DNA from: Adhaeribacter rhizoryzae
GTDB taxonomy: Bacteria; Bacteroidota; Bacteroidia; Cytophagales; Hymenobacteraceae
NCBI RefSeq assembly: GCF_008629685.1
Contig: NZ_VWSF01000001.1
Span: forward strand, 620,001 to 684,000
Length of the DNA stretch: 64,000 bases
Direction of reading: 5' to 3'
Positions 31,435 to 36,340 of the stretch are shown here, one piece after another. Positions within the stretch are counted from its first letter, which is position 1. The number at the start of each line of letters is the position of its first letter. A model generated the notes under the pieces. The model was given only the letters and a program-made list of their open reading frames with translations. It did not search any database and was not told the DNA's origin. A program made the position numbers and the translations under genes.

Positions 31435-32307
31435 ATGAAAGAAACTATTTTAATTACGGCTGCCAATGGTACGGTGGGCAGCGAAACCGTTAAGATGCTG
31501 GCTGGTACGGATTTCCGGGTGCGGGCAGGCGTACATTCATTAATTAAAGGCGATCGGTTCCGGGGCTTGCCCAATGTAGAAATGGTACACCTGGATTTTC
31601 ACGACCTGGAATTATTACGTGTGGCACTTACCGGTGTAACTCATGTTTTGCTGATTACGCCATTTACCCAGGACCAAGTTGAATGTGCGAAAAAAATTAT
31701 TGACGCGGCTAAAGAAGCAGGGGTACATCATATTGTTCGCCTGTCGGCTAGCGGTGCCGATGCAGAACCGGGCATACAGCTAGGCCGTGAACACCGGGAA
31801 GTGGAGCAATATTTAGCAGCATCCGGCATACCCTATACTATTTTGCGCCCGTCTGGGTTTATGCAGAATTTTTTACAAAGTGCCGAGAGTATTTGCCACA
31901 AAAACAGCATTTATATGCCCTTGGGCCAAAGTAAAGTAAATTACGTAGATGCCCGCGATATTGCCGCCGTTGCCGCTACCGTTTTAACCCAACCCGGCCA
32001 CGAAAGCAAAATATATGAAATTACCGGACCGGAAGCTATTTCTGTTAACGATGTAGCCCATGCGCTAACCGTAGCTACTAACCGCCTGATTGTTTACGTA
32101 GATGTACCCGAAAGTGCAGCCGCTACAACCATGCAGCAACACCACATGCCCGATTGGATGATAAACGCACTCATGGAATTATACGGAGTTCAAAAAGCCG
32201 GGTACTCCGAACATATTGCCAATACGGTTGAACAAATAACCGGCCGCCAGCCACGCTCTATTATAGATTTTGCGCAGGATTACAGCCAACGTTTTCAACC
32301 GGAATAA
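31435..32307 (+). CDS. NmrA-like NAD(P)-dependent reductase
   Basis: A 290-residue atypical short-chain reductase (NmrA/QorB-like). The Rossmann motif ITAANGTVGSETV occurs right after the start, followed by FRVRAGVHSLIKGD, VTHVLLITPF and YTILRPSGFMQNF. No YxxxK catalytic motif is obvious, as in NmrA-type redox sensors and NAD(P)H:quinone reductases. ATG 31435 is chosen because it places the glycine motif at residue 9; the TTG at 31405 would add a ten-residue unsupported extension. The substrate is not inferable. A terminator shared with the convergent gene at 32382 follows. Confidence 0.85.
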   Translation: MKETILITAANGTVGSETVKMLAGTDFRVRAGVHSLIKGDRFRGLPNVEMVHLDFHDLELLRVALTGVTHVLLITPFTQDQVECAKKIIDAAKEAGVHHIVRLSASGADAEPGIQLGREHREVEQYLAASGIPYTILRPSGFMQNFLQSAESICHKNSIYMPLGQSKVNYVDARDIAAVAATVLTQPGHESKIYEITGPEAISVNDVAHALTVATNRLIVYVDVPESAAATTMQQHHMPDWMINALMELYGVQKAGYSEHIANTVEQITGRQPRSIIDFAQDYSQRFQPE

Positions 32308-32330
32308 AGGTTAAAAATAAAACTAAATAC

Positions 32331-32361
32331 AAAAAGGCTTCCTGAAACAGGAAGCCTTTTT
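32331..32361. terminator. Bidirectional terminator between convergent genes
   Basis: A perfect 14-bp stem AAAAAGGCTTCCTG / CAGGAAGCCTTTTT (32331-32344 with 32348-32361) with a 3-nt loop has A-run and T-run arms that suit both strands. Confidence 0.92.
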
Positions 32362-32381
32362 GTATTTAGTTGCGCTACGGA

Positions 32382-34109
32382 TTAATCATCGTACTCATTA
32401 CTACCGCGGTACTGATTATTTCGGTCATTCCAGCGGTTATTATTATCGTCATCATCGTCATGGCGGCGCCCTGATCGGTAATTGCTTTCATAACCTTCCT
32501 GTTGGCTTCTGCCCCGGGTATAATTGTGCGTGTCGTTAAACTGGTTGCCTTGCCACCGCGATTGGTAATCATCGTGGCTGGAGTTATCGTAGCTGCCGCG
32601 GTAATTGGTTTGGCCGCCCTCCCGAGATTGCTGGTAGCCTTGGTCGTGGCCGTAATTAGAGCCGTAGTTGCTGCCGCCCTGGTTGCCATAACTGCCCTGA
32701 CTACCCCGTCTATCGTTCCCGGAACGATATTCATCGTTGTAAGAGCCGCCCCGCGAGCCAAAGCCACCTTGCTGGCTATAGCCGCCTTGCCGGTCTTGTT
32801 GGTTGCCGTAGCCGCGCTGGTTACCATAATCATCGTTAAAACCGTTCATGCCACTGCCGCGGTAAGATTCGTGATGCTGCCGATCCTGATCCATGCGGCC
32901 GTAGCCACCCCGGTTGCCGCCTTGCGTGTTATCGCGGTTCCAGTCCTGATTTTGGTGCCAATCCGACTGCCGGCTTTGGGTACTTCCCTGGTAATTCTGA
33001 CGATTCCAGTCTTGATTTTGCTGGCGGTTACCCCGGTCTGCGTTGTAGTCGTTCCGGTTGCCATAATCCTGGCGATTATCGGAATTGTTGCCGTAGCCGC
33101 CGCGGTAGCCGGAGCCTTCGTTAAAGTTACTCTGGCCGTAGCCGCCGCCACTTTGGTGACCGGTATGGCCAAAACCACCCCGTCCGGCCGATTGGTACCC
33201 GCTACCTTCATTATCGTAAGGTTCGTAGCCATAACTACCCCGCTGGCCACCTCTGTTTTGGTTATAATCTTCGTTGCCTTGGCTATAACTGCTTTGTCCA
33301 TAGCTACCCTGATAGTCTTGGTTACCTTGACCATAGTTACTCCGCGAATCCTGTCTTCCCTGGCCGTAATTGCCCTGATAACCTTGGTTACCATAACCGC
33401 CACCACCGTAGCCACCAGATTGGTGCCCATAGCTGCCGCCCTGGTTACCCCAGCCGCCACGTTGGTCGGTGCTGAAGTTATCATAATCGTTGTAGTCGCG
33501 GTTGCCTTGGCTGCCTGATTGCCTATGTTGGTTTTGGTCGTTATCCTGGTTACTGCCTTGGTTTCGGTTAGCTGTGTTTTCCGAGTTTATTCCCATGTTG
33601 GTATTATTCTGGGCAAACTCGGTAGCTGTTCCTGGGTTTTTATTTCCAGTATCGGTAGTATTATTTTTACTAGCGTTCTCTGTTTTATTTGGAGTACTTG
33701 CTTTTGCGTCCTTATCGGTTTTGGCAGAAGCATTATTTTTGGATGTACTGCTACCAGAAACCGCACCGGTTTTAGCGCTACTTGTAGTTGTTTTAGCCGC
33801 CCCGGTACTGGTTTTGGCCGTGCTGATGCCAGTTTCTTTTTTTAGGTTAGTGCTGCTGGGATCAGTAGTAGACGAAGTCAGGCTTTTTTTAGTAGCATCT
33901 TTCGATTGGTTCTGATTTTTGTTTTCGTTGGGATTAGCACCCCAAGGATTCGTTTCCGCGCTGCTTTGTGGCGAGGTTGCTTTGTTCTGTTCATTGCTTC
34001 CTTTATTAGCTGCATTAGCCGATTCGCCGGTGTTGCCTGTTAACATATCGGTAATGGTTGAAATAACACCTTTATTTTCGCCTGTGTCATTTTTTTTGTT
34101 CTCTTCCAT
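32382..34109 (-). CDS. Large intrinsically disordered Gly/Tyr/Gln/Asn/Arg-rich protein
   Basis: A 575-residue protein with almost no hydrophobic residues after its N-terminus. Residues 1-25 include a short amphipathic segment (GVISTITDMLTG). About 26-200 are Ser/Thr/Asn/Lys-rich. From about 205 to the end it is a low-complexity prion-like domain with dozens of GY/YG units (GGYGGGGYGNQGYQ, NYGQGNQDYQGSYGQ), several RGG motifs (QRGGWG, GRGGFG, NRGGYGR, SRGGSY) and an acidic run of five Asp near the C-terminus. It has no signal peptide. The composition resembles FUS/EWS low-complexity regions, so RNA binding or condensate formation is possible, but that is inference; no homologue is known to me. 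It is divergent from the cold-shock gene at 34409. Confidence 0.75.
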   Translation of the reverse strand: MEENKKNDTGENKGVISTITDMLTGNTGESANAANKGSNEQNKATSPQSSAETNPWGANPNENKNQNQSKDATKKSLTSSTTDPSSTNLKKETGISTAKTSTGAAKTTTSSAKTGAVSGSSTSKNNASAKTDKDAKASTPNKTENASKNNTTDTGNKNPGTATEFAQNNTNMGINSENTANRNQGSNQDNDQNQHRQSGSQGNRDYNDYDNFSTDQRGGWGNQGGSYGHQSGGYGGGGYGNQGYQGNYGQGRQDSRSNYGQGNQDYQGSYGQSSYSQGNEDYNQNRGGQRGSYGYEPYDNEGSGYQSAGRGGFGHTGHQSGGGYGQSNFNEGSGYRGGYGNNSDNRQDYGNRNDYNADRGNRQQNQDWNRQNYQGSTQSRQSDWHQNQDWNRDNTQGGNRGGYGRMDQDRQHHESYRGSGMNGFNDDYGNQRGYGNQQDRQGGYSQQGGFGSRGGSYNDEYRSGNDRRGSQGSYGNQGGSNYGSNYGHDQGYQQSREGGQTNYRGSYDNSSHDDYQSRWQGNQFNDTHNYTRGRSQQEGYESNYRSGRRHDDDDDNNNRWNDRNNQYRGSNEYDD

Positions 34110-34376
34110 AGATTTATTTTTTAGGTGAATAATTTGTTAAACCAATAAGCACCTGTTCTTTCAGAAGCTTACCGGATATTAGCACAAAAAATATTTTGGT
34201 ACTTAGAATATACGAGGGCTAAAGGCTTATGTTTTTGGAGGTTTAGGGCAGAATAAAGAAAATGAACGCGGGTTAGTAAAAATATTTTTATATTTTTTTT
34301 AAAATAAAGCTTATTTGGGATAACCTTATTCCGAAAGAAATGTATATTGCATCGTTAGGTTTTGAAATATTATGCC

Positions 34377-34384
34377 TATATTTG
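34377..34384 (+). promoter_or_regulatory. -7 promoter box TATATTTG for cspA-like gene
   Basis: A perfect TAnnTTTG lies 24 bases before the ATG at 34409, giving a leader of about 18 nt. There is no long cold-shock leader as in E. coli cspA. The 34110-34408 gap otherwise holds AT-rich DNA. Confidence 0.55.
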
Positions 34385-34408: not shown

Positions 34409-34600
34409 ATGAAAACAGGTAAAGTAAAATTTTTTAACGAATCTAAAGGATTCGGATTCATTGTTTCTGATGATAACAACCAAGACATCTTCGTTCACCA
34501 GTCTGGTTTAGTTCATGAGATTCGTGAGAATGACAGAGTATCTTTTGAAGTTACAGAAGGAAAAAAAGGATTGAACGCGGTTAACGTAGAAAGAATCTAA
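34409..34600 (+). CDS. Cold-shock domain protein (CspA family)
   Basis: A 63-residue single OB-fold protein with RNP1 KGFGFIV (residues 13-19) and RNP2 DIFVH (26-30). It binds single-stranded RNA/DNA and acts as an RNA chaperone. ATG 34409 is the real start; the upstream in-frame ATG 34340 precedes the promoter box and would add 23 residues foreign to the family. It is monocistronic with its own terminator and is divergent from the disordered protein gene at 32382-34109. Confidence 0.96.
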   Translation: MKTGKVKFFNESKGFGFIVSDDNNQDIFVHQSGLVHEIRENDRVSFEVTEGKKGLNAVNVERI

Positions 34601-35306: not shown

Positions 35307-35798
35307 ATGCGGAGGATAAATTATGAAGAAGCGATAAAAGAATCAGTAGGGGAATTATTGATTCTAGAGAAGGAGCAGAAACAGGCTCGGCTACGGGACT
35401 GGGTGCGTTTTGTGCGTTACTTGAAAGCAGGGCAAGCGAAGACACAGCTGCAGGCCGGGGAGATGATTGGCCTGCAGCGGCGGCAGAGCCAGCAGTTATG
35501 GCAACAGTATGCTCACCATGGGCTGCCCGGTCTTCTTGTTCTTGGCTACAAAGGCGGCTGGGCAAAATTGAGTTCCACTCAGCAAGCTCGTTTGTTGCAG
35601 CGCTTAGACCAGGATGATATTGCCACCCAAGGGCAGTTACGGGACTGGCTGGAGCAGGAAATGCAGGTTACTTACTCACAACCCGGTATTTCGGTGCTGC
35701 TCGCGCGGCTGAAAGTAAAGCTTAAAACCGGCCGTCCCGTAAACGTGCGCAAAGACGTGGTAGGGGAAGCAGCTTTTAAAAAAACTTCGGCCAAATAA
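35307..35798 (+). CDS. IS630 transposase, first frame (helix-turn-helix part)
   Basis: A 163-residue first frame that starts 13 bases inside the left inner terminal repeat. It contains a helix-turn-helix region (about residues 40-75: AKTQLQAGEMIGLQRRQSQQ and LWQQYAHHGLPGLL) and a second winged-helix segment (LRDWLEQEMQVTYSQPGIS and VLLARLKVKLKTGRP). Its zero-frame end after the A7 run (AFKKTSAK) is not expected in the family; the -1 frame instead gives NFGQIKAPYQESQLYFTDE, which continues into the catalytic domain. Full transposase is therefore expected only through -1 frameshifting. The GC-rich coding contrasts with the AT-rich target gene. Confidence 0.85.
   Translation: MRRINYEEAIKESVGELLILEKEQKQARLRDWVRFVRYLKAGQAKTQLQAGEMIGLQRRQSQQLWQQYAHHGLPGLLVLGYKGGWAKLSSTQQARLLQRLDQDDIATQGQLRDWLEQEMQVTYSQPGISVLLARLKVKLKTGRPVNVRKDVVGEAAFKKTSAK
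35778..35784 (+). promoter_or_regulatory. A7 slippery site for programmed -1 frameshift
   Basis: A run of seven A follows TTTT. Zero frame reads TTT AAA AAA ACT; slipping back one base gives AAA AAA then AAC TTC GGC, joining the two transposase frames. The -1 frame has a TAA at 35777-35779, so entry must occur at or after the A-run. Confidence 0.75.
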
Positions 35799-36340
35799 AA
35801 GCGCCGTACCAGGAGTCGCAGCTTTATTTCACCGATGAGATGCGCTACGGCACCCGTACCCACTCGCGCCGCCGCTGGACCAGGCAAGGGCATCGGCCAG
35901 CATGCCCGGTGAAGCTAGGTTATGAATGGGGCTACTTGTATGTGGCTATCTGTCCTTTTACCGGCGATATGTATGCCATGTTCCTTTCGCACTTGGATAA
36001 ACAATGCTTTACTTACTTTCTGCAACAACTGCAGCTATACTTGCAGCAAAAAGGCATCGACCAAGCGCTCCTGATGGGCGATGGGGCAACGGCGCATACT
36101 GCCCAGCACTGGCCGCAACAACAGCTACTCCAATGGCAGAAGCTGCCGACGGCTTGTCCGGAACTCAACCCCGTGGAGCGTTTCTTTGAAGAACTACGAG
36201 CCAGCACCAGCAACAAAGTATTTGCCGATAAACAACATGTGGAAGATTATTTAGCTGACCTTATCCGCCTCCACCAGCAGCAGCCTCAACTTATCTCTAG
36301 CCTTACTCTGTTTCCCTACTTAAGCGCAGTACCTACTTAA
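35780..36340 (+). CDS. IS630 transposase, second frame (DDE catalytic part)
   Basis: The -1 frame from the A7 run to the TAA at 36338-36340. Catalytic acids appear in LYFTDEMRYG (first Asp, 35834-35836), LLMGDGATAH (second) and CPELNPVERFFEELR (Glu). The first Asp lies upstream of the ATG at 35840, so an independent start there would make an inactive protein; this supports frameshifting. The C-terminal end passes through the inner right repeat and stops between the inner and outer repeat parts. No internal stop is seen, so the element may be active. Confidence 0.85.
   Translation, partial: KNFGQIKAPYQESQLYFTDEMRYGTRTHSRRRWTRQGHRPACPVKLGYEWGYLYVAICPFTGDMYAMFLSHLDKQCFTYFLQQLQLYLQQKGIDQALLMGDGATAHTAQHWPQQQLLQWQKLPTACPELNPVERFFEELRASTSNKVFADKQHVEDYLADLIRLHQQQPQLISSLTLFPYLSAVPT
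36318..36331. repeat. IS630 inner terminal repeat, right
   Basis: ACTTAAGCGCAGTA is the perfect reverse complement of 35281-35294. Confidence 0.85.

Follow-up and report, generated by a model that had tools for sequence, protein, structure and literature searches.

The window, a 64,000-nucleotide stretch of the Adhaeribacter rhizoryzae genome, carries a gene for a 575-residue, predicted disordered protein that is flanked by a convergent gene for an NmrA-like SDR and a divergent gene for a CspA-family cold-shock protein (csp) (Table 1). This frame matches exactly, on the minus strand, the low-complexity ORF named in the original prediction, and the overlapping frames on the gene, such as a 338-aa ORF on the plus strand, are by-products. 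Values of dN/dS were about 0.1 (0.07 to 0.15 in close pairs), similar to those of the neighboring NmrA-like gene; because this is purifying selection, the ORF is coding, and together with family-wide conservation it rules out a frame artefact or chance low complexity. The codon usage of the gene is unlike that of ribosomal genes (CAI of 0.63 versus 0.70), which gives no indication of constant high abundance and no support to a proposal of high constitutive expression through codon bias.

Table 1. Features at the disordered-protein locus, with positions in the window
Feature	Position	Strand	Basis
NmrA-like SDR, convergent neighbor, conserved in most genera	31438..32307	+	Pfam NmrA 1.6e-33
Strong near-symmetric terminator hairpin between the convergent disordered-protein and NmrA-like genes	32323..32369	.	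Sequence
Tyr/Arg/Gly/Asn/Gln-rich intrinsically disordered protein, 575 aa	32382..34109	-	ORF, composition, orthologues, predicted disorder
Family core motif GGFGSRGGSYNDEYRS, residues 448-463	32721..32768	-	Cross-genus alignments
-10 element CGTATA, ECF-type promoter, 105 nt upstream of ATG	34209..34214	-	Intergenic alignment
-35 element AAAC, same ECF-type promoter, spacer 16	34231..34234	-	Intergenic alignment
TAnnTTTG box of csp, unlike the disordered-protein promoter	34377..34384	+	Sequence
CspA-family cold-shock protein, 63 aa, conserved as the divergent gene at most loci	34409..34600	+	Pfam CSD 4e-19

The protein contains 16.7% Gly, 14.4% Asn, 11.3% Ser, 10.3% Gln, 7.8% Asp, 7.1% Tyr, and 6.6% Arg, has no Cys, and has a GRAVY of -1.91. 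It has a two-part layout, with an N-terminal part of about 157 aa that is rich in Lys, Ser, Thr, Ala, and Asn and a sticker-spacer-like C-terminal part of about 418 aa in which many Tyr residues lie in a background of Gly, Asn, Gln, Ser, and Asp. The last Lys is residue 157, and the 418 residues that follow it include 38 Arg; at the window's 6% Lys, a Lys-free tract of this length has a probability of about 7e-12. The whole protein has a Shannon entropy of 3.65 bits and its C-terminal part one of 3.26 bits, compared to 4.11 bits for the neighboring NmrA protein. There are 13 [GS]Y[GSN] units, and aromatic residues make up 14% of the C-terminal 65% of the chain.

We found no meaningful match of this protein to Pfam or NCBIfam (for Pfam, none even at E<=1) and no relative among the solved structures searched. 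AlphaFold2, given a 25-row alignment, returned a mean pLDDT of 40 and no secondary structure, in agreement with the earlier claim that a folded domain is lacking. A short N-terminal amphipathic stretch, which that claim had excepted (GVISTITDMLTGN), is shared by the window protein with its two nearest relatives only and is left unfolded by AlphaFold2; across the sequences compared, it is not a family feature. For family counts, we gathered 94 sequences, one of which (L010) is the window protein itself in cut form. Sequences rich in Gly, Gln, Asn, and Tyr occur in extracellular matrix proteins, which would speak for an exported matrix, adhesin, or amyloid protein, the outcome that the original prediction had named as its refutation. 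However, a signal-peptide-like, hydrophobic N-terminal, or transmembrane stretch was absent from the window protein and from all 94 members, no secretion domain was found with Pfam or NCBIfam, and the neighboring genes are of other kinds, so we regard export as extremely improbable.

The original prediction had also likened the protein to FUS, EWS, and TAF15 (the FET family). Like regions of these proteins, it combines Tyr and Arg stickers with Gly/Ser/Gln/Asn spacers, and it has the low-complexity, Tyr-rich domain with GY and SYG units that is a FET feature. The FET features RRM and RanBP2-type zinc finger were absent at a Pfam threshold of E<=1 and from the AlphaFold2 model, which has no fold. 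We counted six RGG motifs, where the prediction had noted several, and all of them lie far apart, so that none forms an RGG box, in which fewer than 4 residues separate RGG motifs (PMC8847598). Unlike FUS, EWS, and TAF15, the protein is bacterial and stand-alone and has an ECF-type stress promoter; common ancestry is not indicated. Thus, the FUS-like interpretation holds for the sticker composition, while the domain content (no RRM, no zinc finger, dispersed RGGs) excludes the protein from the FET family.

The prediction had staked its reading on orthologues in sister species, and we found one copy per genome in 7/7 other Adhaeribacter genomes. Synteny with the NmrA-like gene led to orthologues in four further genera, including Pontibacter, and a profile built from more distant members identified the protein in 52/61 Hymenobacter genomes; orthologues occur in every sampled genus of Hymenobacteraceae. 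Conserved synteny, which had likewise been proposed as something to look for, was seen in genera g1 to g6, with NmrA and/or csp adjoining. Profile searches of the order, covering 390 and 291 genomes, gave no match beyond Hymenobacteraceae, an absence that is only as good as the profiles, since profile A1 (25 rows) missed Hymenobacter at E<=1e-10 and it was profiles A3 and A4 that found the Hymenobacter copies. The E values of low-complexity profiles can be inflated, and orthology was based on synteny, motif, and promoter jointly. We found no description of the protein in open PMC papers, and it is probably of a kind not previously described in bacteria. At two Hymenobacter loci (L029 and L047), two csp copies lie near the NmrA-like gene and the disordered protein is not there, the gene having moved or been lost.

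Identity between genera falls to about 25 to 30%, and the sticker grammar is kept at this distance, a pattern of conserved composition and diverged sequence that the original prediction had said would support function. Across genera, the proteins keep 7 to 10% Tyr, Arg, and the exclusion of Cys (94/94 members) and of C-terminal Lys (zero Lys in 74/94 members and at most one in 83/94). Aromatic residues are at or above 10% in 82/94 members, with a family range of about 10 to 16%, and net charge is near zero in most. The spacers shift by genus, from Asn rich in Adhaeribacter (13 to 16%) to Ser/Gly rich in Pontibacter (27%/27%). Within genera, the best-retained residues are Tyr and Gly, plus Arg in one group, and the Ser/Asn/Gln spacers drift. 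In this the protein resembles FUS, in which Tyr is retained while spacers drift (PMC8847598).

The family is not featureless, since GSRGGSYNDEY and, in the Hymenobacter copies, RGEFGSxGxGNTQGGYGNQ and DSDYGSAPRRNRGRD are as conserved as the composition; the core xGGSY(N)DE is present in 92/94 proteins. These short linear motifs could make the protein a scaffold or hub for which the composition is a mere flexible chain. The best argument that they matter beyond composition comes from two strongly diverged Hymenobacter members (L136 and L137), which have 7 to 9% aromatics and a net negative charge and retain motifs and promoter with far fewer stickers; the members that diverged most, and lost their Tyr and RGG richness, still have the motifs. 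Because some Hymenobacter copies have lost most of their Tyr and RGG, FUS-like stickers are not strictly needed everywhere and, given L136 and L137, may not be the essential part. However, the motifs share the residues of the rest of the chain and might be nothing more than those sticker patches that are conserved best, and the protein has no known partner, so we consider a scaffold role quite unlikely. L136 and L137 are natural tests of stickers against motifs.

The disordered-protein gene is divergent from csp in about 80 loci, with 245 to 648 nt in between, and this pairing persists at loci where the NmrA neighbor is gone. When the intergenic regions were aligned, CGTATA was the single element common to all groups. 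It was present in 64/64 unique csp-linked intergenic regions (5.4 expected), and AAC-N16/17-CGTATA was present in 63/64, compared to 0.32 expected from Markov shuffles. The same pattern was found at loci without csp and, in total, upstream of 87/93 distinct genes with upstream sequence. The six genes without it are the cut copy L010; L125 and L126, which have CGTATA and no AAC at 16 to 17 nt; and three Hymenobacter copies, L153, L157, and L166. Some of these last three come from genomes with a second match and so may be duplicate copies that are controlled differently. A scan with the sigma-70 consensus gave no more sites than in shuffles. The csp gene has its own TAnnTTTG box, present in 49/64 intergenic regions, which we take to be the Bacteroidota housekeeping promoter type.

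The element has an ECF-type layout, with a -35 AAC, a spacer of 16 to 17 nt, a -10 starting with CGT, and a fixed orientation upstream of the gene. The sigma-W promoter of Bacillus subtilis is TGAAAC-N16-CGTA. A -35 AAC is near-invariant in ECF promoters (PMC7083833). In alphaproteobacteria, the general-stress promoter reads GGAAC-N16-CGTT and csbD is among its direct targets (PMC7083833), so that the EcfG regulon resembles the one seen here both in its AAC-N16-CGT layout and in targets such as csbD; unlike that of EcfG, the -10 here is CGTATA. These features point to a putative ECF-type alternative sigma factor as the activator under stress.

We also looked at which other genes lie behind this promoter. 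AAAC-N16/17-CGTATA is rare, with 15 sites genome-wide in G000, compared to 37 for a reversed control pattern, and intergenic sites with a downstream ORF were far more frequent at a spacer of 16 to 17 nt (12/30) than at 21 to 22 nt (2/29; Fisher P of 0.005). The downstream genes form a coherent set: DUF892/YciF in G000 and Pontibacter; in both G000 and G001, a CsbD-like gene, the Pfam score of which is weak and under the curated cutoff, and an SDR gene, presumably GS39-like; and SPW and DUF4142 genes in G004. In an independent test with DUF892, the promoter was found before 23/27 genes of the family, 34 to 70 nt upstream of the start, compared to 0.035 expected, and we conclude that the promoter type is real and stress linked. 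The disordered-protein gene is among the most consistent members of the AAC-N16/17-CGTATA set in the genomes compared, and this element marks out a candidate general-stress regulon of the Hymenobacteraceae. We found no description of such a regulon in open PMC papers. Dry, cold, and irradiated places are frequent sources of Hymenobacteraceae isolates. To our knowledge, the disordered protein is not among the known targets of the general-stress regulons used for comparison, those of sigma-B (Bacillus) and EcfG. A GAAC variant of the -35 element matched mostly in coding sequence and did not clearly enlarge the regulon. Two further genes with the same promoter in two species, encoding a TPR lipoprotein (G000:C12:83086 and G001:C18:5871) and a 122-aa protein of unknown family (G000:C2:163334 and G001:C19:61462), are candidate members. 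In the outgroup, one of two readable DUF892 genes (G040) has the promoter, and the DUF892 upstream regions (L267 to L296) suggest a candidate Cytophagales general-stress promoter that extends more widely than the disordered protein.

Since the promoter is common to stress genes, the earlier guess of a stress role gains independent backing, and the protein is probably stress induced and protective or droplet forming. All 94/94 members have more than 6% Gly and a GRAVY below -1, the numeric cutoffs for hydrophilins; in composition the protein is a hydrophilin, a term that denotes a physicochemical class and not a homologous family. It shares with hydrophilins and LEA-like proteins (yeast Hsp12 and STF2 and bacterial LEA) a very hydrophilic, Gly-rich, disordered, and Cys-free chain and, from its promoter sequence, apparent stress control. 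It could thus be a soluble protectant of this kind, a dispersed, water-binding shield that forms no condensates and in which Tyr and Arg are incidental. All members fit the description of hydrophilins in words, Gly rich and highly hydrophilic (PMC4190154), and the promoter in common with other stress genes and the swing of the spacers between Asn rich and Ser/Gly rich from genus to genus also agree with such a role. However, the protein is far more aromatic and Arg rich than hydrophilins and LEA proteins, is long (mostly 500 to 700 aa), and has no sequence or Pfam relationship to them, the models of LEA and other hydrophilin families in Pfam and NCBIfam giving no match for 8 family members. 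Near-total exclusion of Lys from the C-terminal two-thirds with Arg kept, and preferential retention of Tyr, would be unexpected for a generic hydrophilin, and we find a merely soluble protectant somewhat unlikely. We favor a protective condensate or gel because Lys exclusion with Arg and Tyr retention fits sticker-spacer condensation, as described for FUS (PMC8847598).

The protein is therefore best explained as a disordered effector of the general-stress regulon that is hydrophilin-like with a FUS-like sticker-spacer composition. On this reading, an alternative (ECF-type) sigma factor would switch the gene on in stress and the accumulating chain would act as a hydrophilic network former, in which the Tyr and Arg residues of the C-terminal, Lys-free region would cross-link weakly within the Gly/Ser/Asn/Gln spacer matrix. 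The resulting condensate or gel could keep proteins and/or RNA soluble as water activity or temperature drops, and solubility or contacts with clients may come from the N-terminal, Lys-rich part and from the conserved short motifs. What we say of phase separation, RNA binding, and protection is inferred from sequence, and we hold with moderate confidence the whole account of a cytosolic, fully disordered stress protein that is specific to Hymenobacteraceae and forms a protective network or condensate.

The linkage to csp keeps an RNA role in play, and the cold-shock protein that this divergent gene encodes could plausibly be a client or partner. An RNA-granule protein acting with CspA, which would hold or remodel stress mRNA, would be a two-gene counterpart of plant proteins in which a CSD or RRM is fused to a glycine-rich region and which phase separate (PMC13261584, PMC8198583). 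Plant glycine-rich CSD proteins such as AtGRP2, and CIRBP, join a cold-shock-type or RRM domain to a Gly/Arg/Tyr-rich disordered part and have a stress role; unlike in these, the cold-shock protein and the disordered protein are encoded by separate, divergent genes that have different promoters. Retention of the csp pair where the NmrA neighbor was lost, the Arg/Gly-rich tracts, and the RGG motifs agree with a granule role. However, the difference in promoter type, the loci at which csp does not adjoin (g4, sampled g6, and some Hymenobacter), the dispersal of the RGGs, their number of 0 or 1 in two diverged members, and the lack of an RNA-binding domain in the disordered protein make it unlikely. 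Only tentatively do we extend the preferred condensate reading to a stand-alone FUS-like scaffold that evolved independently of animals, is induced by a general-stress sigma factor, and converts part of the cytoplasm to a Tyr-Arg protective condensate, possibly recruiting the cold-shock protein from next door and RNA. Bacteroides thetaiotaomicron Rho is a Bacteroidota protein that forms condensates (PMC13269538); unlike the disordered protein, it is an enzyme (a termination factor) and not a stand-alone stress protein. If our reading is true, bacteria would have a natural and genetically simple version of the FUS-type sticker-spacer proteins, with a defined stress promoter and in the form of dozens of orthologues whose spacers (Asn rich or Ser/Gly rich) and sticker density vary. 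This variety would make selection on condensate grammar in bacteria, and cell protection by condensates, directly testable.

A search of the flanks for Rfam elements gave only sub-threshold chance matches, mostly around the terminator hairpin. Beyond csp lie an EEP-type nuclease gene, a gene for a GldH-like lipoprotein, and a PSP1-like gene, names that we assume from reading the sequences. Between csp and the EEP nuclease gene, two adjacent ORFs at 35307 to 36340 of the window resemble a split IS630-type transposase; this pair is absent in relatives, which suggests that it was inserted recently into a cluster that is conserved in other respects.
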